61,330 bases of DNA from Bacteroidota bacterium (GTDB lineage Bacteria > Bacteroidota > Bacteroidia > Bacteroidales > UBA7332), in contig JAUZOF010000002.1 in NCBI GenBank assembly GCA_030706585.1, positions 1 through 61,330 on the forward strand, written 5' to 3'. Below the pieces are notes generated by a model that did no database searches, was not told where the DNA came from, and saw only the letters and a list, made by a program, of their open reading frames with translations. Each line of letters starts with the position of its first letter. The stretch's first letter is position 1. Shown here piece by piece: positions 7,144 to 46,454 of the stretch. A program made the translations under genes and the position numbers.

Positions 7144-9651
7144 ATGAAACTCAATATATTGATAGTAAAATTTTTGTTTTTCTCAAGCATCATTCCATTG
7201 ACGGCTCTGTCTGCAGTTAATTACGGAAATGGATTGCCGGCTACTGATGCGCTGGGTAGAGCATTGCCGATGCATCAGGATGTGGGCAATGTGCGATTGC
7301 ATAAACAGGTTGGTATATTTTACTGGACCTGGCATACAGATGGAAATGCAACTTTTTCTCCCGTTTTAAACATTACCCAAATTTTACAACAATATCCCTC
7401 AGCAGCAACAGATGCAAATCATTCTGCATGGCAGGGAATTACTGGTGGCGTTTTTTGGTGGGATGAACCTTTGTTTGGTTATTATCGCACTACCGACGAG
7501 TGGGTGTTGCGAAAACATGCCGAGATGTTGGCAGATGCCGGCATCGATGTGGTCTTTTTCGATTGTACCAACGGAAGTCTTACCTGGAAATCGTCATATG
7601 CTAAACTGCTCGAAGTATGGGAACAGGCGCGTAAGGATGGTGTCCAAACGCCTCAGGTAGCATTTCTACTGCCGTTCAGTGCCACCGACGGATCGATGGC
7701 TTCGCTGAGTGAGTTGTATGACGAACTTTATAAGCCACAATTATATAAAGATTTGTGGTTTATGTGGAATGGAAAGCCTTTGATTATGGCTTATCCCAAT
7801 TGCCTGACGGCGAACAGAAGCAGTGCAGGTCTGAAATTTACAGCTACCGCTCCGTTTTATGGCGTTAATGCCACCTGTCCGAGCTGGGGAAATAACGTAG
7901 GAAATCTCACTTTCCGTTTGTACAAGTGGAATAATAGTTATGCAGAAACGGTTGCAGGGCCTGTTATTGCGGAAAAGACATTTGTCAATTTTGCAGATAA
8001 TGCGAAACTCACCCTGACTTTCGAGAAGCAGGATGTAGGAACCTATCTGTGGGAACTTTGCAACGGAACTGAGACGGTGGGTGTATGGAAATATACCGAT
8101 ACCAATGGTTCTTCAATCAGCTATTTTAACTCAACTCAAACCAGTGGAAATTATCTGAGCGAGATTGCTTATTCCTCCGATCTGACTTTCACTCCACTGA
8201 CTACAGGAGCCGGTACGACGCCGGTACAGGTATTGTCGATGATTAGTCAACAGAGAATTGATTCCATTAAATCATTTTTTACGTTTCGTCCCGGCCAGCC
8301 CGACTATGTTAACGGACCGTCGGATAACCAGCAATGGGGATGGCTCGAGAACTATCCGCAACATGGTTATGGATTGAAATCGAACGGTGGATATGAAGAG
8401 GTGACTGTTGGTGTTGCACAAAATGCCTCGTCAGCGAGTGGGGGACATGCTTGCGGCTTTAATTCTGCTTATACGTACGGCCGAAGCTATACAAAAGCCA
8501 ATGGGCAGGATTTTTCCACAGGAGCTTATGTTTACGGGAAAAATTTTCAGGAACAGTGGGGCCGGGCTCGTCAATTGGATCCTGACCTGATTTTTGTGAC
8601 CGGTTGGAATGAGTGGATTGCCGGACGTTGGTTCGACTGGGACGTGAAACCGTTTGCTTTTGTGGATGAGTATTCTGCTGAAAAAAGCCGTGATATTGAG
8701 CCCGTGAAATCGTGGGGAAATAAAGGTGATGTTTACTATATGCAGTTGGTCAACAACATAAGAAAATATAAAGGAGTGCCAGCCGAAGAAGCTGCTTCGT
8801 TTTTGGCGACTATTGATATGAACGACCGTAGTTTCTGGAATAATGTTAAGCCTGAATTCTTGTCTTACAAAGGAAATGTTTTGCATCGCAATCATCCCGG
8901 ACAAGGTACTTCACTTGTTTATACCAATAACACCGGACGAAATGACATTGTCAAAGCAAAAGTTGCGAGGGATAAAGATTATTTGTATTTCTATGTCGAA
9001 ACGGCTGATGCATTGACAGATAAATCGGATCCGAAATGGATGCGGCTTTTCATTGATATTGACCGGAATAAAAATACCGGATGGGAGGGATATGATTTTG
9101 TCCTTAACCGAAGCAATCCAAGCGATTCTGTTAGCATTGAAAAAAGTGCAAATGGTTGGAATTGGAGTAAAGTTGGCGCTGCCGGATATGCAGTGAACGG
9201 TTCGACACTTGTTTTTAAAGTAAAACGCTCACTATTGGGCGTTGCAGAAGAACAGAGAACCAATTTTGAATTTAAATGGAGCGACAACATGCAGGAAGAC
9301 GGTAACATCATGGATTTTTATGTGAATGGGGATGTGGCACCCTCCGGACGTTTTAATTACCACTATTTTGTGGATACGTCAACAACTCCGACACAACCGT
9401 CAAATGTTCAATTCCAGATTTTTCCCAATCCGACCGCGGATAAACTGAACGTGGTTCTTCCAGTCGGCATTGAGAAGAATGCGGAACTATCCATTTATAA
9501 CAGTTCCGGGAAGAGGGTGTGGGTTAAACAATTGTCGGATTCTGCGATATCAGAAAGCATTAATCTGTCATTTCTGAATAATAAAGGAATGTACATTGTT
9601 GAACTAAAGACCCGTGGAAAGCTGATGAAAGAAAAATTTATTTATAGATAG
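7144..9651 (+). CDS. Secreted protein, GH71/GH99-like TIM barrel (uncharacterised family, paralog 1) with inserted beta domain, C-terminal CBM9/DOMON-like domain and T9SS sorting domain
   Basis: ORF opens at TTG 7069; signal peptide starts at ATG 7144 (MKLNILIVKFLFFSS). 'VGIFYWTWH', 'AEMLADAGIDVVFFDCTNG', 'VTGWNEWIAGRW'; C-terminus 'FQIFPNPTADKLNVVLP...KGMYIVELKTRGKLMKEKFIYR' is a Por/T9SS type A tail. Confidence 0.8.
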   Translation: MKLNILIVKFLFFSSIIPLTALSAVNYGNGLPATDALGRALPMHQDVGNVRLHKQVGIFYWTWHTDGNATFSPVLNITQILQQYPSAATDANHSAWQGITGGVFWWDEPLFGYYRTTDEWVLRKHAEMLADAGIDVVFFDCTNGSLTWKSSYAKLLEVWEQARKDGVQTPQVAFLLPFSATDGSMASLSELYDELYKPQLYKDLWFMWNGKPLIMAYPNCLTANRSSAGLKFTATAPFYGVNATCPSWGNNVGNLTFRLYKWNNSYAETVAGPVIAEKTFVNFADNAKLTLTFEKQDVGTYLWELCNGTETVGVWKYTDTNGSSISYFNSTQTSGNYLSEIAYSSDLTFTPLTTGAGTTPVQVLSMISQQRIDSIKSFFTFRPGQPDYVNGPSDNQQWGWLENYPQHGYGLKSNGGYEEVTVGVAQNASSASGGHACGFNSAYTYGRSYTKANGQDFSTGAYVYGKNFQEQWGRARQLDPDLIFVTGWNEWIAGRWFDWDVKPFAFVDEYSAEKSRDIEPVKSWGNKGDVYYMQLVNNIRKYKGVPAEEAASFLATIDMNDRSFWNNVKPEFLSYKGNVLHRNHPGQGTSLVYTNNTGRNDIVKAKVARDKDYLYFYVETADALTDKSDPKWMRLFIDIDRNKNTGWEGYDFVLNRSNPSDSVSIEKSANGWNWSKVGAAGYAVNGSTLVFKVKRSLLGVAEEQRTNFEFKWSDNMQEDGNIMDFYVNGDVAPSGRFNYHYFVDTSTTPTQPSNVQFQIFPNPTADKLNVVLPVGIEKNAELSIYNSSGKRVWVKQLSDSAISESINLSFLNNKGMYIVELKTRGKLMKEKFIYR

Positions 9652-15412: not shown

Positions 15413-17287
15413 ATGATTAAATCAACCTTTTTAGTGATGTTTTGCTTGCTTGTAATGCTTGGAAATTGCGAGCAAGCTTTCGGGCAAGCTGCGGCGCCCA
15501 TGATTCCCAAGCCGGTAGAAGTGAAGAATCTTACCGGAACTTTCCAGTTGACAGCCAAGTCAAAAGTCATTGTCCCTGCCGGTAATATAGAGATAGAGGA
15601 GATTGCACAATCGTTTGCCGGGCAGTTGGCCTCGGTTATCGGACAAAAACCGGAAATTGTCAGCAGAAACCAGAAGCAATCCATTGAGTTTAAAATAAAC
15701 GGCGAGTTCAATTCCCGTCTGGGTAATGAGGGGTATTTCCTTTCCGTAACGCCAAAGATGATTACAATTTCGGCAAACAAACCTGCCGGACTTTTTTACG
15801 GAGCCCAAACTCTGTTGCAGATGATTTCTCCGGATAAAACCAATGCTCCGATACAGCTTGCTTGCACTGAAATAACCGATTATCCCCGATTTGGATGGCG
15901 TGGGCTGATGCTCGATGTTAGCCGTCATTTTTTCACAAAGGAAGAGGTAAAGCGGTTTATCGATCAGATGGCGAAATACAAGTTTAACGTGTTTCACTGG
16001 CACCTGACCGACAATCAGGGGTGGCGTATCGAAATTAAAGGATTGCCTCTGCTGACCAATGTTGGAGCATGGCGTGTCGCCCGCACCGGCAATTTCGGCT
16101 ATTTTGCTCCTCCGGCTGACGGAGAACAAAGCACCGACGGCGGATTTTATACTCAGGACGAAGTGCGTGACATTGTGAAATATGCACAGGAACGGTATGT
16201 GACCATAGTGCCGGAAATTGATGTGCCGGGACATAGTCTGGCGTTTATTGCCTCCTATCCCGAATCGTCTTGTACTCAGATTCAATATCCTGTGAATGCA
16301 GGGTTTCCGACCGGTGCCGATGTGGTGCTTTGTGCCGGAAATGACGATGTATTTAAAAAACTGGAAACTATATTCTCGGAAGTAGCATCTCTGTTCCCGG
16401 GCAAATATATTCATATCGGGGGCGATGAGGCCGATAAGGCATTCTGGAAAAAATGCCCCAAATGTCAGGAGAGGATGAAGCAAGAAAACCTGAAAAACGA
16501 AGAAGAGCTGCAAAGCTATTTTATTAAAAGGGTGAGCAAAATACTGGAATCCAACGGTAAGAGTTTGATCGGATGGGATGAAATCCTTGAAGGTGGACTT
16601 GCCTCCAATGCGGCTGTTATGTCGTGGCGTGGTACCGAGGGAGGTGCGGCAGCCGCCAAAGCCGGACACCCGGTTGTGATGACTCCCAATCAATATTGCT
16701 ATCTGGATCATACTCAGGGTGAGAATGTCATTGAACGATACGGAATCCTGTTCTGTTGTTTTATGCGAATGAAAGAGGCTTACAAATTTGATCCGATGAC
16801 CGGAGTGTCCGATTCTGCATACGTGCTGGGCGGACAAGCCAACTTGTGGACCGAAATGGTGCCCAATTACCGCAGAGCTGAGTACATGGTATGGCCGCGT
16901 GCGTTGGCTCTGTCCGAAGTGCTCTGGTCGCCGAAAGCAAACCGCGACTGGGACGAATTTGTACCACGGGTAGAAGCTCAATTTCAAAGATTTGACAAGG
17001 CCGATGTCAATTATGCTCCGAGTATGTACGATCCGGATATTTCAATGATAAAAGCCGGCGAAGATGATTACCGGATTGTTTTTACGCCTGAAATTAAAGG
17101 ACTGGATGTCTATTACACTTTCGATTTTACTTTCCCCGATCATCATTCGGCAAAATATGACGGGCAACCGATAAAGACTCCGAAAGGAGCTACTGATATC
17201 TGGGCGATAACCTACCGAAATGGAAAACCCATCGGACGTTTGTTGACCATAAAGTTTGATGAATTGAAATCCAGAATGGGTAAATGA
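15413..17287 (+). CDS. Beta-N-acetylhexosaminidase, GH20 (paralog 1)
   Basis: 624 aa; 'WRGLMLDVSRHFF', 'VFHWHLTDNQGWRIEIK', 'HIGGDEADKAFWKKCPKCQ' catalytic D-E pair. Confidence 0.93.
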   Translation: MIKSTFLVMFCLLVMLGNCEQAFGQAAAPMIPKPVEVKNLTGTFQLTAKSKVIVPAGNIEIEEIAQSFAGQLASVIGQKPEIVSRNQKQSIEFKINGEFNSRLGNEGYFLSVTPKMITISANKPAGLFYGAQTLLQMISPDKTNAPIQLACTEITDYPRFGWRGLMLDVSRHFFTKEEVKRFIDQMAKYKFNVFHWHLTDNQGWRIEIKGLPLLTNVGAWRVARTGNFGYFAPPADGEQSTDGGFYTQDEVRDIVKYAQERYVTIVPEIDVPGHSLAFIASYPESSCTQIQYPVNAGFPTGADVVLCAGNDDVFKKLETIFSEVASLFPGKYIHIGGDEADKAFWKKCPKCQERMKQENLKNEEELQSYFIKRVSKILESNGKSLIGWDEILEGGLASNAAVMSWRGTEGGAAAAKAGHPVVMTPNQYCYLDHTQGENVIERYGILFCCFMRMKEAYKFDPMTGVSDSAYVLGGQANLWTEMVPNYRRAEYMVWPRALALSEVLWSPKANRDWDEFVPRVEAQFQRFDKADVNYAPSMYDPDISMIKAGEDDYRIVFTPEIKGLDVYYTFDFTFPDHHSAKYDGQPIKTPKGATDIWAITYRNGKPIGRLLTIKFDELKSRMGK

Positions 17288-18546
17288 TTATAAGTGCAAC
17301 ATCGATGAGAATACTATTTTTTATTGCAGTGTTGGCCTTTTTCGGACATACAGCGCTTGGTCAAGGAAAAGCCCCAACAAAGAAGCAAGCCTTTGAGAAT
17401 GAATTCCGCATAGGAATATTCTGGCCGCCGGTATGGGAACATACCAATCAGGCTCAGTATAAAATTATTAAAGATGCTCATATCAACTACATACAAAATG
17501 TGCTTGGTTCGCAGCTCGATACAGAAGAACGTAACCGGAAAATGCTGGAACTGGCCGGAAAAAACGGTTTGAAACTGTTTGTGGCCGATCCGAGGGTAAA
17601 TGGCTCTGCTGATGATATCAAAGCGATGGTGGAATGCTACCGAAAGTATCCGGCAACGTCGGGTTATTATGTGGTTGATGAACCGGATGTGAAAGGAATG
17701 GACGGAGCGGCAAAAAAATATCAGACCATCCTCTCGTTCGACCGACAAGCTGTGCCCTATGTCAATCTGTTGCCTTCGTGGGCGGTACCCGATTACGACA
17801 ATTATGTGACCCAATGGATTGAAAAATGCGGGAAAGAAAATCTGAAATATCTCTCGTTCGACTGCTATCCGTTTTTGCTTGACGGAACCTTGCGAAATAC
17901 CTATTATCAGAATCTGAATGTTATCCGTAAGGCCGGATTGAAAATCGGAGTACCTACCTCTTGCTATCTTCAATCGGTGGGTATACCGGGATCTTATCGT
18001 CGACCCAGCGAAGCTGATATGCGATTGAATGTTTATTCGTGTTTGGCCTACGGAATTAAAAATCTGGTGTGGTTTACCTACTGGACACCTACCGGCAGAG
18101 GAGAAAAATTTACGAATGCTATTATCGACTCCTGCGGCAAAAAGACCGATTTGTACGTTCCATTTCAGCAGTTGAATCTACGCATTTCACAGCTGGGTAA
18201 AACGTTGATAAATCTTGATGCTCTATCGGTTTATCATGTTGGAAAAGAGGTTGCTGCAGGAATGGACGCGCTGCCTTCGGATTATGTGTTGCAACCGGAG
18301 TCTCATAATGCAGAATTGCTTCTTGCTGATTTTAAGGAAAAAACGGTGCACAAGCAATTTGTGATGATTGTCAATAAATCGGTTCAGTTCCCCGTTTCCC
18401 TTCCATTTCACCTGAAAACAGGAACGCAGATCAGAGAAGTCGCCCACGCTTCCGGAGATTCAAAAAAGAGCCGTTATGATAAACGATCGCAAACACTGTA
18501 TGTCGATCTGCTTCCCGGGGAAGGAAAATTGTTTGAAATTTATTAA
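17284..18546 (+). CDS. Secreted TIM-barrel glycosidase-like protein of uncertain family
   Basis: 420 aa with signal peptide; 'GYYVVDEPDVKGM' acid/base-like motif, 'LVWFTYWTP'; start overlaps GH20 stop (ATGA). Confidence 0.55.
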   Translation: MIISATSMRILFFIAVLAFFGHTALGQGKAPTKKQAFENEFRIGIFWPPVWEHTNQAQYKIIKDAHINYIQNVLGSQLDTEERNRKMLELAGKNGLKLFVADPRVNGSADDIKAMVECYRKYPATSGYYVVDEPDVKGMDGAAKKYQTILSFDRQAVPYVNLLPSWAVPDYDNYVTQWIEKCGKENLKYLSFDCYPFLLDGTLRNTYYQNLNVIRKAGLKIGVPTSCYLQSVGIPGSYRRPSEADMRLNVYSCLAYGIKNLVWFTYWTPTGRGEKFTNAIIDSCGKKTDLYVPFQQLNLRISQLGKTLINLDALSVYHVGKEVAAGMDALPSDYVLQPESHNAELLLADFKEKTVHKQFVMIVNKSVQFPVSLPFHLKTGTQIREVAHASGDSKKSRYDKRSQTLYVDLLPGEGKLFEIY

Positions 18547-25103: not shown

Positions 25104-27086
25104 ATGAAAAATCCACGGTTCTCTGTTTTGTTGTTTATTAGTCTGTTTGTTTTAGGTTCTTTGTTAGCTGAAAACCGTTGGAAGCTGATGCCAGGAGGTC
25201 AAATCTCCTGGCAAATCGGTGAAGGTTTGCCACATTCCGACCATATTGAAATGAGTGGCGACAGCATTTCGGTGATTTTGAGATATTCGGTCGGAGCCGA
25301 TCGTTCTTTTCATTTGGAACGACAGCTGGTGTGGCCGATGCTTCGCACTATTCCCAACAATACTTATGGAAGTCTGATTCATTCGGTAAATGACGATTGT
25401 CTGTCAACCATCAAGGTTAACGGGCAATCGTTGGAGAAACTGGAGACAACGGAAATCTCGCTTCACGGTTTGATGCAGGTAAGGAGCAAATCGTCTCAGG
25501 CGGAATTGCTGCGTACTATCTTTCCCTCGCCTGAACATCCGGCTTGTTACGAAGAGTATTCGCTGACCAATAAATCGTCGGAACGAATATCGGTTGAGAT
25601 TCCTCATTCCAGAGTGATTGCAACCACAGATCCCGAACGGGGAGTGAGAGGTAGTTATCAAATCATTGCCGAGCTTGAAGGTGGAGGCTTTTACTGGTTG
25701 AATCCGGGTCAAACCCTGACATGGAATTTGCGTATTGCAGCTCAACCTCTTGGTGGCAGCTATTCCAAAATGGCTGTTGCAGTAGAAAAAAACAGGCGGA
25801 AGATTCTTGTGGAAATGTGGAGCAATAACTTGGTGCTTGAAACTCCGGATAATGTGCTGAACCGGGCTTTCCAGTTTGCCAAGATCCGGGCTTCGGAAAG
25901 CATCTTTAAAACCAAAGGTGGATATATGCACAGTCCGGGCGGAGTGGCTTATTATGCCGCTATCTGGGCAAACGATCAGGCCGAATATGTCGGTCCGTTC
26001 TTTCCTTACCTGGGATATGCGAAAGGAAATGAGGCTACTCTTAACGCTTATCTCCATTTTGCCCGTTTTATGAACGACGAATACAAACCGATTCCAAGTT
26101 CGATTATTGCCGAAGGAACCGACATCTGGAATGGTGCCGGCGATCGGGGTGATGCGGCTATGATTGCTTACGGAGCATCACGCTTTGCATTGGCATTGGG
26201 AAATAAAGAGAGTGCTCAAAAACTGTGGCCGCTGATAGAATGGTGCCTTGAATACAATAAACGAAAGCTGAATAACGAAGGGGTTGTTACTTCTGATGCT
26301 GACGAACTTGAAGGTCGTTTCCCGGCAGGGAAAGCCAATTTGTGTACCTCCAGTTTGTATTACGATGCGCTAATATCGACTGCAAAATTGGGAAAAGATC
26401 TGGGTAAGAGTGATGCGCAAATGCAGTTGTATCGCGAAGAAGCACAAACGTTGCGCCGTAATATAGAATCCTTTTTTGGTCGTACCGTGGATGGTTTCCC
26501 CACTTATCGCTACTACGACGGTAATGAGGTGTTGCGTTCCTGGATTTGCATGCCGCTGACGGTAGGCATTTACGACCGTGCACAAGGAACCATCAACGCC
26601 CTGTTTTCTCCGCGTTTGTGGACCGAAGACGGGTTGGCAACTCTGGCTGGCGATAAAACGTTTTGGGATCGATCAACTCTGTATGCACTCAGAGGAGTGC
26701 TTCAGGCCGGTGAGACCGACAAAGCCGTTAAATATCTTCAATATTATTCGCAACGTCGGTTGTTGGGGGAGCATGTGCCCTATCCGGTGGAGGCCTATCC
26801 TGAAGGAGGACAGCGCCATCTTTCTGCCGAAAGCGGATTGTATTGCAGAATCTTCACCGAAGGATTATTTGGCATTCGTCCCACAGGTCTGAAGTCGTTT
26901 GAACTGTCGCCCCGTTTGCCGAAAAGCTGGAACAAAATGGCGTTGCGGAAAATCAATGCCTTTGGAAACGAATTTGATATTGAAGTAGTTCGTAAACATT
27001 CGGGTTTGCAGGTCAAAGTAATATCAAAAACAAAAACGATAGTGAAACCCGTTTCGGACGGGAAAACACTAACGATTAACTTGTAA
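25104..27086 (+). CDS. Secreted six-hairpin ((alpha/alpha)6) glycosidase-like protein, family uncertain
   Basis: 660 aa; N-terminal beta domain then 'YYAAIWANDQAEYVGPFFPYLG', 'AEGTDIWNGAGDRGDAAM', 'SAESGLYCRIFTEGLFGIRPTG'. Confidence 0.55.
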   Translation: MKNPRFSVLLFISLFVLGSLLAENRWKLMPGGQISWQIGEGLPHSDHIEMSGDSISVILRYSVGADRSFHLERQLVWPMLRTIPNNTYGSLIHSVNDDCLSTIKVNGQSLEKLETTEISLHGLMQVRSKSSQAELLRTIFPSPEHPACYEEYSLTNKSSERISVEIPHSRVIATTDPERGVRGSYQIIAELEGGGFYWLNPGQTLTWNLRIAAQPLGGSYSKMAVAVEKNRRKILVEMWSNNLVLETPDNVLNRAFQFAKIRASESIFKTKGGYMHSPGGVAYYAAIWANDQAEYVGPFFPYLGYAKGNEATLNAYLHFARFMNDEYKPIPSSIIAEGTDIWNGAGDRGDAAMIAYGASRFALALGNKESAQKLWPLIEWCLEYNKRKLNNEGVVTSDADELEGRFPAGKANLCTSSLYYDALISTAKLGKDLGKSDAQMQLYREEAQTLRRNIESFFGRTVDGFPTYRYYDGNEVLRSWICMPLTVGIYDRAQGTINALFSPRLWTEDGLATLAGDKTFWDRSTLYALRGVLQAGETDKAVKYLQYYSQRRLLGEHVPYPVEAYPEGGQRHLSAESGLYCRIFTEGLFGIRPTGLKSFELSPRLPKSWNKMALRKINAFGNEFDIEVVRKHSGLQVKVISKTKTIVKPVSDGKTLTINL

Positions 27087-33331: not shown

Positions 33332-35143
33332 ATGAATACGAAAAAGTTAGCCTTAAATGCAGCAATATTGTTTCTTTTTTTATTTGCGGGACAACTATTG
33401 GCTCAACAGACAGTCAGTGACCAATGGGCTGCAACCGACGCACTGGGTCGGAAAGTGAGAGAGTACCGTGATGCCGGAGATAAGAAGAAAGATAAATTCG
33501 TGGCAATTTTCTATTGGACATGGCATCAGGGAGACGATGATACGACCTATCAGGTGAAGAATATCACCGAAATTGTACGCAAATATCCCGAAGCCATGAA
33601 GGATTACCATCACCCGGCATGGGGAAACAAACAACCCGGTTTTTTCTTTTGGGAACAACCTTTGCTGGGCTACTATAAGACAACCGATCCCTGGGTATTG
33701 CGCAAACATGCTGAAATGCTTGCCGACGCCGGTGTCGATGCCGTTTTCTTCGACTGCACCAATGGCGATCTCACCTGGAAAGAGTCGTATGAAGCTTTGC
33801 TGAAAACCTGGGATCAGGCACAGAAGGATGGCGTGAATGTTCCTCATATTGCCTATATGCTTCCTTTCGGACCGGTTCCTCACGGCCTTACCTCCCTGCG
33901 TCAGTTGTACCGCGATGTTTACAAACCGGGGCGCTACAAAAATCTCTGGTTTTACTGGAAAGGAAAACCCTGCATCATGGGCTATCCCGATAACCTGACG
34001 GATTCTCCCGAAGACAAAGAAATCGCTGCTTTTTTTACATTCCGTCCGGGACAACCTGATTACGTGGACGGTCCTTCGCGTAACGATCAGTGGGGTTGGC
34101 TTGAAAATTATCCTCAACATGGCTATGTGAAACAACCGAACGGCAAGTACGAGCAGGTAACGGTAGGCATTGCGCAGAATGCCAGTCCGGAGACCAAAGG
34201 ACATTGCAGCGCGTTTAATCTGCCGGGATCGTATGGTCGTAGCTTCAGCCAACGCAATGGCTTTGACCCGAGAGTTGAGGGTTATCTCTATGGCTGGAAT
34301 TTTATGGAACAATGGGATCGCGCTTTTGAGCTTGACCCGGAATTGGTTTTCGTAACAGGCTGGAATGAATATACTGCAGGACAATGGTTGCCTATACATG
34401 GATGGACAGGAAAGCCTTTCTCATTTGTCGATCAGTTTGACTGGGAGCATAGTCGCGATATAGAACCTAACAAAGGCTGGGGCGATAAGGGCGACGTATA
34501 TTACATGCAATTGGTCGATCAGGTGCGGAAATTCAAGGGGATGACACCTCCTCAAAAAATATCGTCTCCCAAAACCATCAAAATCGGGAAAACCAATGAC
34601 TGGAACGATGTTTTACCCTATTTTGCCCATTATAAAGGTAATACGATGCATAGGGATCATCGCGGACGCTACGACCAGTATTATCGCAACAATACAGGAC
34701 GTAATGATATAGAAGGAGCTAAGGTTGCCCGTGATGACGAGAATGTTTACTTCTACGTAGAAACCGCCGATGCCTTGACTCCGAAAACCGACCGAAACTG
34801 GATGATGTTGTTTATCGATGCAGACCGTGATAAATCGACTGGTTGGAATGGCTATGATTTTATTATCAATCGTGTTAGCCCAAAAGGGAATAAAGTGTTT
34901 ATTGAAAAGAATGTAGGCAATCGTTGGGAATGGGCAACTACAGCAGAAGCAAAATTTGCTGTCAACGGCAACAAACTTGAAATTGCCATTCCGAGAAGCG
35001 TGCTGAATGTTGTAGGCAAATCACTCAACTTTGAGTTCAAATGGAATGATAACATGCAGGAAAACGGCAATATCATGGACTTTTACGTTAATGGAGATAC
35101 TGCTCCGGGCGGTCGTTTCAATTTTATTTATTCTGAAAAATAA
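33332..35143 (+). CDS. Secreted GH71/GH99-like TIM-barrel protein of uncharacterised family (paralog 2)
   Basis: Signal peptide from ATG 33332 (MNTKKLALNAAILFLFLFAG); 'VAIFYWTWHQ', 'AEMLADAGVDAVFFDCTNGDLTWK', 'VTGWNEYTAGQW', C-terminal 'VYFYVETADAL...MLFIDADRDKSTGWNGYDFIINR'. Confidence 0.8.
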   Translation: MNTKKLALNAAILFLFLFAGQLLAQQTVSDQWAATDALGRKVREYRDAGDKKKDKFVAIFYWTWHQGDDDTTYQVKNITEIVRKYPEAMKDYHHPAWGNKQPGFFFWEQPLLGYYKTTDPWVLRKHAEMLADAGVDAVFFDCTNGDLTWKESYEALLKTWDQAQKDGVNVPHIAYMLPFGPVPHGLTSLRQLYRDVYKPGRYKNLWFYWKGKPCIMGYPDNLTDSPEDKEIAAFFTFRPGQPDYVDGPSRNDQWGWLENYPQHGYVKQPNGKYEQVTVGIAQNASPETKGHCSAFNLPGSYGRSFSQRNGFDPRVEGYLYGWNFMEQWDRAFELDPELVFVTGWNEYTAGQWLPIHGWTGKPFSFVDQFDWEHSRDIEPNKGWGDKGDVYYMQLVDQVRKFKGMTPPQKISSPKTIKIGKTNDWNDVLPYFAHYKGNTMHRDHRGRYDQYYRNNTGRNDIEGAKVARDDENVYFYVETADALTPKTDRNWMMLFIDADRDKSTGWNGYDFIINRVSPKGNKVFIEKNVGNRWEWATTAEAKFAVNGNKLEIAIPRSVLNVVGKSLNFEFKWNDNMQENGNIMDFYVNGDTAPGGRFNFIYSEK

Positions 35144-35280: not shown

Positions 35281-38200
35281 ATGAAGAAAAATGCATTGCT
35301 GACAGCCGGATTGACACTTTTGCTACTATTGATGGGATGGCCGATGAGTAGTTCGACTGTTGCTGCCGGAGGATTTGAACAAGGTTTTAAGGTGCCTGCC
35401 GATTCGATGAAAACCAGCGTTTACTGGTATTGGATTTCAGATAATATTTCCAGAGAAGGGGTAGTCAAAGATCTTCAGGCAATGAAAAAAGCGGGGATCA
35501 ACCGGGCCTTTATCGGTTATATCGGGCAAGATGATGTGCCTTATGGGAAGGTGAAAATTTTTAGCGATGAATGGTGGGATATCCTCCATGCAGCGCTGAA
35601 GACGGCGACCGATCTGAATATCGAGATCGGAATTTTCAATTCTCCGGGATGGAGTCAATCCGGTGGACCGTGGGTAAAACCCGAGAATGCCATGCGTTAC
35701 CTGACAGCTTCGGAACTCCATTTGAAAGGTCCTCAGAAATTCAGCCAAAAGCTCGAAAAACCGATTGCTCTCTTTCAGGATGTCAAAGTGATTGCGTACC
35801 CCGAACCTAAGGATGCACAGCTGATGCTGGATAACCGTATTGCGACATTACATTCGTTACCGGAAGTATCAGATCTTTCCACCATTGTTGACCGTGATCG
35901 TAAGACTGGTTCCCATTTTCCGGCCGAAGGCGATTTTACGTTAGATATTACGGCAAAAGCTCCATTTACAGCCCGTAGTCTTTCTATTGCGCCAATTGCA
36001 AGTCCGATTAACAATCCTGCCGTTTTGCAGGTGAAAGAGGCCAATGGAAGCTACCGTACGATTGCCGAATTTCAGATAAACCGTTACAACGACGCACTGA
36101 ACGTGGGTTTTGATCCGTATGCTCCGATTGTTGTCTCTTTTCCAGCCGTAACAGCAACTTCTTTCCGTGTAATTGTGAAGGGAATAAATAGTAGTAACGG
36201 ATTAGCCGAAGTAGAACTTTCATCTGCTCCTAAGGTGGAACGTTACCCCGAAAAAACATTGGCAAAAATGCATCAGGTGCCGTTGCCTTACTGGAACGAA
36301 TACCAGTGGACAAAACAACCGGAACCCAATGATAAATCAACAGTGATTGATCCCTCAAAGGTGGTAGACCTGACAGCAAACCTTGCTTCGGACGGAACAT
36401 TGACATGGAATGTGCCCGCAGGCAATTGGGTAATAATGCGTACCGGCATGACACCTACCGGCACCAAAAATGCACCCGCATCGCCCGAGGCTACCGGATA
36501 TGAAGTGGACAAGATGAGTAAGCAACACGTGGAAAAACATTTCTACGGATATTTGGGCGAAATACTAAAACGAATTCCGGAGGCTGACCGGAAAACTTTC
36601 AAAGTGGTGGTTGAAGATAGCTATGAGACAGGTGGACAAAATTTCACCGATGGTTTTCTGGCTGAATTCAAACATCGCTATGGATACGATCCTGTTCCTT
36701 TCCTACCGGTTTACAGGGGTTTTGTGGTGGAAAGTGAACAAGCCTCCGACCGCTTTTTGTGGGACGTGCGTAGAATGGTTGCCGACAAGGTTGCTTACGA
36801 TTACGTAGGTGGATTGAGAGACATCAGCCATAAGCACGGCCTGCATACCTGGCTCGAATGTTACGGACATTGGGGGTTCCCGAGCGAATTTTTGATGTAC
36901 GGAGGTCAGTCGGATGAGATTGGCGGCGAATTCTGGAGCGAAGGCGAGCTGGGTAATATTGAGAACCGAGCAGCTACTTCGTGTGGTCATATTTACGGGA
37001 AAACAAAAATTTCGGCAGAATCGAATACCTGCGGAGGTCCCGCTTTCAGCCGTTATCCTGCCATGTTCAAACAGCGCAGTGACCGTTTCTTTGCCGAAGG
37101 TATCAATAATACTCTTTTGCATGTTTATATCAGTCAGCCTTATGAAGAAAAAACGCCGGGCGTAAATGCGTCTTTCGGGAATGAGTTCAACAGAAAAAAT
37201 ACATGGTTTTCTCAACTGGATGTTTTTATCGACTATCTGAAACGAACAAATTATATGTTGCAACAGGGCTTGAATGTGGCCGATGCAGCTTATTTTATTG
37301 GCGAGGATACCCCAAAAATGACAGGAATCACTGATCCGGCTCTTCCTGTTGGTTATCAGTTCGATTATATGAATGCAGAAGTCATTGAAAAACAGATGAC
37401 GGTTAAAAAAGGCTTGATAACCTTGCCTCATGGTACACAATACAGGATTTTGGTTTTGCCGAAACTGGAAACCATGCGTCCCGAATTGCTGGAAAAAATC
37501 AAACAACTGGTCAACGATGGAGCGGTAGTCCTTGGTCCGGCACCACGCCGTTCGCCCAGTCTGCAAAACCAACCAGCAGCCGACCAACAGGTACAGGCGC
37601 TGGCGTCTGAACTATGGGGTGACGTTGATGGCGTAAAGGTAAAATCGCGTAATTATGGCAAGGGGATGATTATGAACGGTGTGAGCATGAAAGAAGCTTT
37701 CGATTTGATTCACTGCGCACCCGATTGCAAACTGCCCGAAGACCGCAGCATTCATTTTGGACACCGGACAATGAACGATGGTGAAGTTTATTTTGTTAGC
37801 AACCAGTCAGAAGAAACAAAATTGATTACTCCTGAATTTAGAGTAAAGGGTTTGCAACCGGAGCTTTGGACTGCAACCACAGGCGCTGTGCGTATCCTTC
37901 CGGCTTTTGAACAAACGGAAAATGCGACAGCTGTTCCATTAAAACTGGCTCCATATGAAAGTACTTTCGTGGTATTTCGCAAAAAAGCAGTTGCATCCAA
38001 ACTCTATGGTATCGAAGGCAATTATCCGACTCCGGTTGTGTTGACGGATGTGAAAGGCCCGTGGAGAGTTCAGTTTGACGCAACTCAGAGAGGACCTGAA
38101 AAACCTTTAATTTTCAACTCTTTGCAGGACTGGACTACCTCTTCGGATGACAGAATAAAATATTATTCGGGTACGGCAATCTATAACGGGCAATTTAACC

Positions 38201-38523
38201 TGAGCAAATTGCCGGGTAAGGATCAGGTAATTGTTGACCTGGGAAATCTGACTGCAATGGCTAAAGTTTGGATTAACGGGGTTTACGTTGGTGGAGTATG
38301 GACTCCTCCGTATCAGGTCAATATTTCAAAAGCAATCAAAAAGGGCAACAATGAAATAAAGATAGAGGTGGTTAATACATGGATGAACCGTCTGATCGGT
38401 GATTTTAAATTGCCTGAAAACCAACGTCCAACCTGGTGCTCGGTGAATCCTTATAGTGCAGACAGCAAATTGCAACCTTCTGGATTGTTCGGCCCAGTTA
38501 CAGTGTCGAGTGTGAAGTATTGA
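35281..38523 (+). CDS. GH106-type alpha-L-rhamnosidase
   Basis: 1080 aa; 'VYWYWISDNISREGVVKDLQAMKKAGINRAFIG', 'GIFNSPGWSQSGGPWVKPENAMRYL', C-terminal GH2-like domain 'AKVWINGVYVGGVWTPPYQVNIS'. Confidence 0.85.
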   Translation: MKKNALLTAGLTLLLLLMGWPMSSSTVAAGGFEQGFKVPADSMKTSVYWYWISDNISREGVVKDLQAMKKAGINRAFIGYIGQDDVPYGKVKIFSDEWWDILHAALKTATDLNIEIGIFNSPGWSQSGGPWVKPENAMRYLTASELHLKGPQKFSQKLEKPIALFQDVKVIAYPEPKDAQLMLDNRIATLHSLPEVSDLSTIVDRDRKTGSHFPAEGDFTLDITAKAPFTARSLSIAPIASPINNPAVLQVKEANGSYRTIAEFQINRYNDALNVGFDPYAPIVVSFPAVTATSFRVIVKGINSSNGLAEVELSSAPKVERYPEKTLAKMHQVPLPYWNEYQWTKQPEPNDKSTVIDPSKVVDLTANLASDGTLTWNVPAGNWVIMRTGMTPTGTKNAPASPEATGYEVDKMSKQHVEKHFYGYLGEILKRIPEADRKTFKVVVEDSYETGGQNFTDGFLAEFKHRYGYDPVPFLPVYRGFVVESEQASDRFLWDVRRMVADKVAYDYVGGLRDISHKHGLHTWLECYGHWGFPSEFLMYGGQSDEIGGEFWSEGELGNIENRAATSCGHIYGKTKISAESNTCGGPAFSRYPAMFKQRSDRFFAEGINNTLLHVYISQPYEEKTPGVNASFGNEFNRKNTWFSQLDVFIDYLKRTNYMLQQGLNVADAAYFIGEDTPKMTGITDPALPVGYQFDYMNAEVIEKQMTVKKGLITLPHGTQYRILVLPKLETMRPELLEKIKQLVNDGAVVLGPAPRRSPSLQNQPAADQQVQALASELWGDVDGVKVKSRNYGKGMIMNGVSMKEAFDLIHCAPDCKLPEDRSIHFGHRTMNDGEVYFVSNQSEETKLITPEFRVKGLQPELWTATTGAVRILPAFEQTENATAVPLKLAPYESTFVVFRKKAVASKLYGIEGNYPTPVVLTDVKGPWRVQFDATQRGPEKPLIFNSLQDWTTSSDDRIKYYSGTAIYNGQFNLSKLPGKDQVIVDLGNLTAMAKVWINGVYVGGVWTPPYQVNISKAIKKGNNEIKIEVVNTWMNRLIGDFKLPENQRPTWCSVNPYSADSKLQPSGLFGPVTVSSVKY

Positions 38524-42530: not shown

Positions 42531-44597
42531 ATGAGAAAATATAAATTGTTGGCTGTTGGATTGTTAGTGTCGCTTTCGCTTATTTCAATCCAGGCTCAAA
42601 AGAGCTCGAAAACAAACAAAAAAACTAAAGCAGAGAATGCCTCCGGTGATAACTATTACCGCGATATTTATCCCGATACCTGGGTGGCCAATGATGCATT
42701 GGGCCGGTCGATGCCTGATTTTCAGGATGTGGGGAAGGTGAAGACCGATCAGCGTCGGGTGGTGGGAATTTTTTACATTACCTGGCATACTCAGGATCAC
42801 TATAAAAATTTTAAGAGCCCTTATTCTGCCGATGTTGCCAAGGTGTTGAAAGGTGATCCCAATGCCCGTTTGGATGCCAAGAATCCACTTTGGACCGAAG
42901 GGTCCTACCATTGGGGCGAACCTGAAAACGGTTATTTTCTGAGTCAGGACGAGTACGTTATTCGCAAAGATATGTCGATGCTGGCCGATGCCGGAGTCGA
43001 TGTTTTGGTGATGGATGTTACCAATGCCGTTCGTTATTGGGACGAATGGGAAGTGACATTCCGTACGATGGAAAAGATGAAAGCCGAAGGAAATAAAGTA
43101 CCTAAGTTTATTTTTTGGGCATTCAACGGTCCGGTAATCACTGTTGTTCAGGATTTGTACGACCGTATCTACAAAGAAGGGAAATACAAAGATCTTTGGT
43201 ACTATTGGGATGGAAAACCTTTGTTGTTGTACAATGGAACACCCGATTTTGATGCCAATAGCGGAGGCAACAAACACCCGAATCCGCACTACGATGCAAC
43301 GGCTAAAATCGATACGAAGAATCCTCATTACGGCGATCCCGATTATACGGAAGAATTTTATAAAAATTATACCAAAGAAGTCAAGAATTTCTTTACGCTC
43401 CGTACCATGTGGTGGGGCTATTACGAATGGGGTGGAAAACGTTATATTGGCACCGAAGACAACTGGAGTTTCGGTTACAGTATGGCCGACTCCAAAGTTA
43501 AAAGCCTGAAACCGGAGGAATTGGTATCTACCCATAAAGGACAATTGGAAGAAGCGGCCGTTACTCCGGCTCAACACCCGGTTACCATGACCAGTGAAAA
43601 TATGGGCGTTGGAAAATCGTGGTCGCGGCAATATGGAGAACCGAAGTTGAATCAGTACGATACTCCCGATTCGGCCTACGTTCCCTGGTTGGGAAAAACG
43701 GTGAAGGATCCCGAAGGTTACGGTATCTATTTCCAGGAACGCTGGGACGATGCCTTGAAAGCCAATCCTCAATTCCTGTACATCAACGACTGGAACGAAT
43801 GGACGGCTGGTAAGTATCAGCCAGAAGGCGGAGGAAATACTCCATGGTTGGGACGCAACAATTCGTTCTATTTTGTCGATCAGTATAACTCTGAATTCAA
43901 CCGAACCGTGAGTCCCATGAAAGGAGGTTATACCGACAATTATTATATGCAGATGGCTCAAAATATTCGTCGTTACAAAGGAATTCGCCCGGTGCCGGAG
44001 TTGAAAGGTTATTCCAAAATCAAGCTCGATGGCAAATTTAATGACTGGAATTCGGTTTCGACCGAATATCGTGATACCAAGGGCGATGTTGCACACCGCG
44101 ATCATAACGGTTATGGCGGATTGCATTACACCGATAATTCAGGACGCAACGATTTTGTTACCCTGAAAGTGGCTGTAGATAAGCAAAACTTGTTCTTTTA
44201 TGCCGAAACAAATGAAAAGATAACCAGTTCGTCGGATAACAACTGGATGCTTTTGTTGATCGATGCCGATAAAAATCCCTCTACCGGCTGGTTTGGTTAT
44301 GATTATGTGATCAATAAAAAGGTGAAAGACAGTCAGACAACAACGTTGATGAAGTATGATCCGTCTCATCCCGAAAATCCATGGGCGGAAGTTGCAGAAT
44401 TGAAATATCGTTGTGTAGACAATAAACTGGTGGTGGAAGTTCCCCGATCATTGCTGGGTTTTACCAACAATGCATTTACTTTCGATTTTAAGTGGAGCGA
44501 CAACGCTTCGGATTTGAACGATCCGATTTCGCTTTGTACACATGGGGATACAGCCCCCAACAGGAGATTTAACTATCGTTGTATCTGGTCGAAATAA
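42531..44597 (+). CDS. Secreted GH71/GH99-like TIM-barrel protein of uncharacterised family (paralog 3, divergent)
   Basis: 688 aa; 'VGIFYITWH', 'DMSMLADAGVDVLVMDVTNAVRYW', 'YINDWNEWTAGKYQ', C-terminal 'LLLIDADKNPSTGWFGYDYVINK'. Confidence 0.8.
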   Translation: MRKYKLLAVGLLVSLSLISIQAQKSSKTNKKTKAENASGDNYYRDIYPDTWVANDALGRSMPDFQDVGKVKTDQRRVVGIFYITWHTQDHYKNFKSPYSADVAKVLKGDPNARLDAKNPLWTEGSYHWGEPENGYFLSQDEYVIRKDMSMLADAGVDVLVMDVTNAVRYWDEWEVTFRTMEKMKAEGNKVPKFIFWAFNGPVITVVQDLYDRIYKEGKYKDLWYYWDGKPLLLYNGTPDFDANSGGNKHPNPHYDATAKIDTKNPHYGDPDYTEEFYKNYTKEVKNFFTLRTMWWGYYEWGGKRYIGTEDNWSFGYSMADSKVKSLKPEELVSTHKGQLEEAAVTPAQHPVTMTSENMGVGKSWSRQYGEPKLNQYDTPDSAYVPWLGKTVKDPEGYGIYFQERWDDALKANPQFLYINDWNEWTAGKYQPEGGGNTPWLGRNNSFYFVDQYNSEFNRTVSPMKGGYTDNYYMQMAQNIRRYKGIRPVPELKGYSKIKLDGKFNDWNSVSTEYRDTKGDVAHRDHNGYGGLHYTDNSGRNDFVTLKVAVDKQNLFFYAETNEKITSSSDNNWMLLLIDADKNPSTGWFGYDYVINKKVKDSQTTTLMKYDPSHPENPWAEVAELKYRCVDNKLVVEVPRSLLGFTNNAFTFDFKWSDNASDLNDPISLCTHGDTAPNRRFNYRCIWSK

Positions 44598-44681
44598 AGA
44601 AGACAGCCCTTTGAAGAGAATGTTGATTCTGGTAGGGCCTTAATATAAATGAGATAAACCATCAAATAGAATGAATTGAAA

Positions 44682-46454
44682 ATGAACAGAATGAAAACTT
44701 TATCCCGATTTTTACTCTTTTGGGGCTTGTGTGGAGCCTCTTCGTTGGCTCAGGCGCAACTTCCATTGGGGGCTAATTTTACAGACGCTTCCAGAGTGCG
44801 TTCTACCAGCTTGACGCGTAAATATCTTACGGCCGAACGCATAGTCTGGACATCAGACCCTTCCGGACAAAAGGTTCAAAATGCGGAAAATATCCTGAAA
44901 CCAGGAATCGGACAGGCAGACCTGAATCAGGGTAAATATTTGACTCTGGTAAATGATCAAGATTCTAAGGCCGGAGTGATTCTCGATTTTGGGCGCGAAA
45001 TTCAGGGAGGAATAGAAATTATAACTACGATCAACAATCAGAATCCGGTAGGGCATGTCCGTATTCGTTTTGGGGAATCGGTCAGTGAAACGATGAGCGA
45101 TGCAGGTAGCGATGGTGCCTCCAACGATCATGCCATGCGCGATATGGTGGTTCAGTTGCCCTGGTTAGGTCGATTCGAAATGGGCAATTCCGGTTTCCGT
45201 TTTGTACGCATCGATTTGGTTGATCCCAATACGAAAATCGAGATCAAAGAGGTGAGTGCCACTTTCACTTACCGCGATATACCTTACCTCGGATCGTTTA
45301 GCTGTAACGATGAACGGTTGAATAAAATCTGGATGACAGGCGCTTATACAGTACACCTCAATATGCAGGATTACCTGTGGGATGGAGTGAAACGAGACCG
45401 CCTCGTGTGGGTGGGCGATATGCATCCCGAAGTGATGACCATCAATTCGGTGTTCGGCAATAATGGCGTTGTACCCAAAAGTCTCGATTTGGCACGCGAT
45501 TTGACTCCGCTGCCTAACTGGATGAACGGCATCAGCTCCTATTCGATGTGGTGGATTTTGATTCAACGCGATTGGTACTATTATCAGGGAAATCTGGAAT
45601 ATCTCAAACAGCAAAAAAGTTATCTGACGGCTTTGCTACACCAGTTAGCTACAAAAATTGATCCTTCCGGCAAGGAAATTCTGGAAGAGTCTCGTTTCCT
45701 CGATTGGCCTTCCAGTGAAAATAAAGAGGCCGTGCATGCCGGTCTCCAGTCTATGATGGTGATGACCTTTAAGGCCGGTGCTGAATTGTCCCGCATTTTG
45801 GGAGATAATGAAACAGCTCAGTTGTGTACCTCTTCTATCGAAAAGCTGAAGAAACATATTCCCGGAATGGCCGGTTCTAAACAGGCAGCTGCATTGTTGG
45901 CCATCTCTGGGTTGATGAATCCGGCTCAGGCCAATTCGGGAATGCTGGCACAAGACGGGGTGCATAAAATGTCGACTTTTTACGGCTACTATATGTTGAA
46001 AGCCCGTGCAATGGCCGGCGATTATCAGGGAGCTATCGATAATATCCGCGAATATTGGGGAAGCATGCTCGATTTGGGAGCCACAACCTTTTGGGAAGAT
46101 TTTGATATTGACTGGATGAAAAATGCATCCCGCATTGATGAGGTAGTACCCGATGGTAAGGTTGATGTGCACAAAACATATGGCGGCTATTGCTATAAAA
46201 AATTTCGCCACAGCTTTTGCCATGGCTGGGCGTCAGGGCCGACAAGCTGGCTTAGCCAATACGTTCTGGGTGTGAATGTACTGGAACCAGGCTGTAAAAA
46301 AATTAAGATAGAACCACATTTGGGTGATCTTAAATGGGTAAAGGGAACTTTCCCGACTCCGTTTGGCGTGCTTGAAATTGAACATCAAAAACAAGCCGAT
46401 GGCAAAGTGAAGACAACCTTCAAAGCCCCGAAAGGTGTGAACGTTATTCTTTAA
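44682..46454 (+). CDS. GH78-like alpha-L-rhamnosidase (six-hairpin)
   Basis: ORF from TTG 44676, ATG 44682; 'YLWDGVKRDRLVWVGDMHPEVMTINSVFG', 'CHGWASGPTSWLSQYVLGVNVLEPGCKKIKIEPHLGDLKWVKGTFPTPFG'. Confidence 0.8.
   Translation: MNRMKTLSRFLLFWGLCGASSLAQAQLPLGANFTDASRVRSTSLTRKYLTAERIVWTSDPSGQKVQNAENILKPGIGQADLNQGKYLTLVNDQDSKAGVILDFGREIQGGIEIITTINNQNPVGHVRIRFGESVSETMSDAGSDGASNDHAMRDMVVQLPWLGRFEMGNSGFRFVRIDLVDPNTKIEIKEVSATFTYRDIPYLGSFSCNDERLNKIWMTGAYTVHLNMQDYLWDGVKRDRLVWVGDMHPEVMTINSVFGNNGVVPKSLDLARDLTPLPNWMNGISSYSMWWILIQRDWYYYQGNLEYLKQQKSYLTALLHQLATKIDPSGKEILEESRFLDWPSSENKEAVHAGLQSMMVMTFKAGAELSRILGDNETAQLCTSSIEKLKKHIPGMAGSKQAAALLAISGLMNPAQANSGMLAQDGVHKMSTFYGYYMLKARAMAGDYQGAIDNIREYWGSMLDLGATTFWEDFDIDWMKNASRIDEVVPDGKVDVHKTYGGYCYKKFRHSFCHGWASGPTSWLSQYVLGVNVLEPGCKKIKIEPHLGDLKWVKGTFPTPFGVLEIEHQKQADGKVKTTFKAPKGVNVIL

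Follow-up and report, generated by a model that had tools for sequence, protein, structure and literature searches.

Three homologous proteins in a glycoside hydrolase-rich locus

The window, by which we mean the whole 61,330-nucleotide stretch analysed here, carries three genes for proteins P0001, P0002, and P0003 (copies 1 to 3; Table 1), lying among genes of the GH78, GH115, GH2, GH27, GH36, GH20, GH43/32/130-like, GH127, GH106, GH3, and GH31 types. A first-pass annotation had described three ORFs of common architecture at these positions, and both the ORF positions and pairwise alignments agree with it: P0001 and P0002 align in two segments at 50-58% identity (E 1e-147), and P0002 and P0003 are 33% identical across 646 columns (E 1e-104). 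The three proteins are homologous along their full length (33-58% identity), far above chance, and contain the motifs quoted in that annotation, with minor variants in copy 3 (SMLADAGVDVLVMDVTNA, DWNEWTAG, and LLLIDADKNPSTGWFGYDYVINK). No fourth copy was detected in the source genome. Each protein opens with a signal-peptide-like hydrophobic stretch, and a T9SS sorting tail is present in P0001 only (PF18962, E 1.4e-11); copy 1 would thus probably reside at the cell surface, and the periplasm is the probable location of the other two copies.

Table 1. Positions of the three copies, their domains and key residues, and selected neighbouring genes in the window
Feature	Position	Strand	Remarks
Copy 1 (P0001), 835 aa	7144..9651	+	Signal peptide; (beta/alpha)8 barrel split by an inserted domain of beta type; CBM9-like domain and T9SS sorting tail
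Copy 1, accessory domain inside barrel, ~150 aa	7810..8259	+	Residues 223-372
Copy 1, Glu490	8611..8613	+	Predicted catalytic, WNEW motif
Copy 1, Ala493	8620-8622		Dyad partner position
Copy 2 (P0002), 603 aa	33332..35143	+	(beta/alpha)8 barrel between a signal peptide and a C-terminal CBM9-like domain
Copy 2, ATDALGR motif	33431..33451	+	D36 and R40 invariant in 109/109
Copy 2, D141	33752..33754	+	Ends beta-2 (FFDCTNG); candidate for the second catalytic carboxylate
Copy 2, E346	34367..34369	+	WNEW motif; first dyad position
Copy 2, A349	34376..34378	+	Position of second dyad Glu
Copy 2, C-terminal CBM9-like beta-sandwich	34574..35134	+	Near-invariant GRND; N458 and D459 in 109/109
GH106 alpha-L-rhamnosidase	35281..38523	+	Commonest GH gene near family members
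Copy 3 (P0003), 688 aa	42531..44597	+	Signal peptide and CBM9-like domain, with longer loops in the barrel
Copy 3, Glu423	43797..43799	+	Predicted catalytic
Copy 3, Ala426	43806-43808		Dyad partner position
GH78-like protein	44676..46454	+	Recurrent neighbour of the family

Apart from the T9SS tail of copy 1, searching P0001-P0003 against Pfam, NCBIfam, and PDB sequences directly returned nothing meaningful. Pfam gave no match over the barrel in 12 members of the family (the three window copies and nine others), and NCBIfam likewise assigned no family to seven further members. The first-pass annotation, which had recognised no characterised family here and proposed a Pfam search as a check, therefore holds in that Pfam and NCBIfam name none for these proteins. 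Because a 2026 paper (PMC13421300) applied the CDD model cd11575 (GH99_GH71_like_3) to a Prevotella protein whose dyad reads DYGE, some members may bear a generic "71/99-like" label, and we use "unnamed" with respect to Pfam and NCBIfam. Our literature search found no study of this family or of the DUF5722 proteins mentioned below.

Accessory domains

The C-terminal domain had been called CBM9/DOMON-like from its letters, and a fold match now favours the CBM9 part of that call: Foldseek aligned it with the CBM9 of Thermotoga maritima Xyn10A (1i82_A; probability 0.95, E 7e-3), a moderate match that falls short of the 0.001 threshold. The two domains are alike in fold, whereas the family domain has the near-invariant GRND and no Pfam match at E ≤ 1; W490, W505, W534, and W571 are also conserved in it. 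Similar CBM9-like domains occur on other Bacteroidota proteins (L104-L110); L104, for example, pairs a domain of this type with one from the endonuclease/exonuclease/phosphatase family and also has a T9SS tail.

The ~150-aa domain inside the barrel of copy 1, which was absent from the first-pass annotation, recurs in adjoining ~490-aa proteins of related loci, one of them weakly GH130-like, as well as in a bacterial-looking IMG/VR protein; outside the window these occurrences are at L012:5722-7200, L081, L084, L020, L015, L022, L038, L028, and L101. It is probably a mobile carbohydrate-binding domain of an undescribed type.

Fold of the barrel and relationship to known families

An AlphaFold model built with 100 homologues (pLDDT 95.2, pTM 0.93; single-sequence folding gave an unusable pLDDT of 36.6) contains a (beta/alpha)8 barrel of the GH99 fold. 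All 40 Foldseek matches of this model in the PDB at E ≤ 0.001 are GH99 or GH71, and all nine matches of the family profile to PDB sequences at E ≤ 1 are GH99 (best 1.1e-5). The earlier call of a GH99/GH71-type TIM barrel, for which a Foldseek comparison had been suggested, was right, since only GH99 and GH71 appear among the significant structural and profile matches. TM-scores to GH99 are moderate (0.5-0.6 on target). A viral entry, BFVD M1HHB3 (463 residues), ranked ahead of all PDB structures when compared with the model (E 3e-14, 24% identity). A Chlorella-type wall as substrate, an idea raised by this entry, was not adopted because the accession is nameless and its chlorovirus link is only our presumption.

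The best PDB matches to the barrel are GH99 endo-alpha-1,2-mannanases/mannosidases (BxGH99, BtGH99, and MANEA), and the family keeps the first dyad Glu in a NEW motif, GKP, and R and D positions of GH99. It differs from GH99 in having Ala in place of the second dyad Glu, in lacking HxEPY, and in carrying the extra CBM9-like domain and an N-terminal DALGR motif; Pfam GH99 (PF16317) gave no match at E ≤ 1 in the 12 members. Foldseek also matched the GH71 alpha-1,3-glucanase AnGH71C (9fnf, 9fnh, and 9fng), in which the barrel is followed by a tightly packed beta-sandwich; after the family barrel, too, comes a beta-sandwich, one that resembles CBM9. However, the family reads EWxA where GH71 has DYGE, the global TM-score is 0.38-0.40 on target, and there was no sequence-level match to GH71, Pfam PF03659 included. 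WbsX members (PF14307) keep NEW[A/S]EG whereas the family has NEWxAG, and neither a PF14307 match nor the NEWAEG motif was found in it. A group of D-F-G-E proteins of Bacteroides belongs, like WbsX, to the same superfamily and, again like WbsX, retains the second dyad Glu; hhalign aligned this group with the family over beta1-beta4 (E 5e-4, probability 33). We treat this group as an outgroup only, since GH99 profile matches in Bacteroides genomes were mostly of the D-F-G-E kind and not canonical EWHE GH99. Judged from sequence, the family is a relative of GH99, GH71, and WbsX and not a member of any of them, given that the second dyad Glu and HxEPY are missing.

Conserved and lost residues of the predicted active site

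The catalytic dyad of both GH99 and GH71 has the form D/E-x-x-E (PMC12394665, PMC11025385), being EW[H/G]E in GH99, where it is reported to be conserved throughout, and DYGE in GH71 (PMC11025385, PMC12394665), and mutation of either residue lowers GH71 activity 200-15,000-fold (PMC12394665, PMC11025385). In a HMMER alignment to BxGH99, E346 of copy 2 corresponds to E333 (first dyad residue), A349 to E336 (second dyad Glu), D367 to D355, R238 to R218, and K212-P213 to K189-P190, while M176 and P178 occupy the H154 and E156 positions of the missing H[I/L]EPY motif. E346 is identical in 109/109 family sequences, and D141, D367, R238, and N345 are likewise invariant. The dyad partner position is Ala in 105 of the 109 (Ser in two, Met and Thr in one each), including all three window copies. 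The emphasis that the first-pass annotation placed on the WNEW Glu is thus justified as regards a conserved catalytic position, but the Glu with which it would be paired is gone. With the partner missing, the mechanism known from GH99 and GH71 cannot simply be transferred to the family. Even with the same dyad, those two families differ in mechanism, GH99 proceeding through a 1,2-anhydro sugar and GH71 by classical inversion. A distant Bacteroides relative (L126) has the same kind of barrel with CBM6 and ricin-type domains instead of CBM9 and reads NEWITG, so loss of the second dyad Glu extends beyond this family.

According to the DSSP string of the model, the invariant acids at cleft-facing strand ends are D141 (beta-2), E346 (beta-7), and D367 (beta-8). 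Among them, D141 is likely the best candidate for a second catalytic carboxylate, as judged from the predicted structure. Its position holds Thr in BxGH99 and Asp in the D-F-G-E group; as that group retains its dyad, D141 need not be a replacement acid. D367 is less likely to be the missing acid because GH99 has the same residue (D355), which may be structural. The invariant E274 was not preferred either, as it starts its strand (beta-6), away from the predicted active site. In a TIM barrel, the end at which strands start lies opposite the active site.

Distribution and phylogeny

A genome scan confirmed at least 559 relatives in GTDB genomes, mostly in Bacteroidota; the best 80 of these at least 559 are mostly from Bacteroidota, with a few from Kiritimatiellota and one from Planctomycetota, and members occur across gut, rumen, and environmental Bacteroidota. 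Within the wider order, 6 of 59 genomes (own included) had a match, the weakest covering the C-terminal domain only. Of 249 genomes drawn from the phylum, two (own included) encoded the full-length protein, the remaining matches being to the C-terminal domain on other proteins. By this whole-genome sampling, the occurrence of the family is patchy. Scanning viral contigs returned a single bacterial-looking relative (L101); a second such scan with L126 as query and a search of plasmids gave no match.

In a quickly built tree of 109 sequences, some long branches of which were flagged, each window copy belongs to a different supported clade, and all three clades also contain orthologues from other taxa. 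This argues for an old set of copies and against a recent triplication. One MAG (L012) carries all three in one locus. The suggestion of the first-pass annotation that all three attack a recurrent linkage therefore appears doubtful, as separate old clades favour three different linkages. In Muribaculum and Alistipes (L066, L069, and L018), as many as five family copies were seen clustered in a row.

Gene neighbourhood

A matching MAG, 100% identical at copies 1 to 3 wherever its sequence covers them, has a longer contig on which window base 1 is immediately preceded by two SusC/SusD pairs, so that this is a polysaccharide-utilisation locus. We examined flanks of up to 10 kb in 79 other family loci, naming SusC/SusD clusters by sequence starts and lengths and other clusters from Pfam matches or homology with genes of the window. 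The most frequent neighbours were SusD (26 loci), SusC (25), GH106 (19), DUF5722 (18), and two GH78-like clusters (12 and 9). Among the 41 loci that span at least 20 kb, 14 contained GH106, whereas ~2% per locus would be expected from ~1 match per Mb, a density derived from 79 matches, counting fragments, across ~78 Mb from 15 genomes. The sole GH106 gene of one genome (L085) adjoins the family gene. A recognised rhamnosidase occurred within the flanks of just 26 of the 79 loci. The enrichment of GH106 supports a rhamnose-containing substrate without naming which, and the presence of three clades near GH106/GH78 rhamnosidases and SusC/D suggests that they act on different linkages of one rhamnose-containing glycan.

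Proposed function and alternative explanations

Taking the observed homology, predicted fold, invariance of E346, loss of its partner, and gene context together, we propose, with a probability of roughly 0.6, that these proteins are secreted glycoside hydrolases of an unnamed family with GH99/GH71 ancestry and fold, in which E346 is catalytic and which cut a rhamnose-containing glycan in a SusC/D locus. In such enzymes, E346, which follows beta-7 and corresponds to BxGH99 E333 and to the GH71 base, would be the retained catalytic residue; with Ala in place of the second dyad Glu, the proton-donor role would be supplied from elsewhere, the leading candidate being D141 at the C-terminus of beta-2, and the glycan would presumably be cleaved alongside the GH106 and GH78 rhamnosidases. 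A bolder version, tentative and on balance doubtful, posits a new GH family that performs endo-cleavage of rhamnosyl-containing backbones in many Bacteroidota with a catalytic acid relocated from the beta-7 loop to D141 at the end of beta-2; endo-action is only an analogy with GH99 and GH71.

The loss of one dyad Glu and the fused CBM9-like domain could also be explained if the family were an inactive descendant, i.e., a secreted glycan-binding protein using the barrel as a binding cleft and the CBM9-like domain as a second site, and some relatives do bear inserted or added carbohydrate-binding or similar domains. We consider this unlikely, because invariance of E346, D141, N345, R238, and D367 in 109 diverse sequences exceeds the usual conservation of binding-only proteins and several ancient paralogues have been maintained side by side. 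That the proteins form a divergent GH99 (or GH71) subgroup cleaving alpha-mannan or alpha-glucan by an essentially known mechanism would agree with the restriction of significant structure matches to these families and with the retention of the dyad's first Glu together with several framework residues. Yet the Ala in 105/109 sequences departs from a dyad reported as conserved across GH99, HxEPY is replaced, PF16317 is unmatched, and no obvious mannan-degrading set (GH92, GH76, and GH38) is present in the window, all of which make this option quite improbable. A transglycosylase, lyase-like, or other non-simple hydrolase of the same fold acting on the same glycan would suit a non-canonical active site and the company of other uncharacterised neighbours such as DUF5722, but it has no positive evidence in its favour and every characterised structural neighbour hydrolyses, and we regard it as very improbable.

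If our preferred reading as hydrolases is correct, a related family that has lost half of the GH99/GH71 dyad would illustrate how a catalytic centre can be reassembled on the same fold. Since it has no Pfam or NCBIfam name, the family may drop out of routine GH annotation, rhamnosidase-rich loci included.

Other neighbours also deserve mention. DUF5722 proteins (for example, L007:2222-4393, L012:7275-9608, and L017:2725-4860) are a second candidate enzyme for the same glycan. Two window proteins, at 17284-18546 (420 aa) and 25104-27086 (660 aa), have no Pfam match, and a 74% identical homologue of the 660-aa protein lies beside a family gene in Maribellus (L007:5432-7486).
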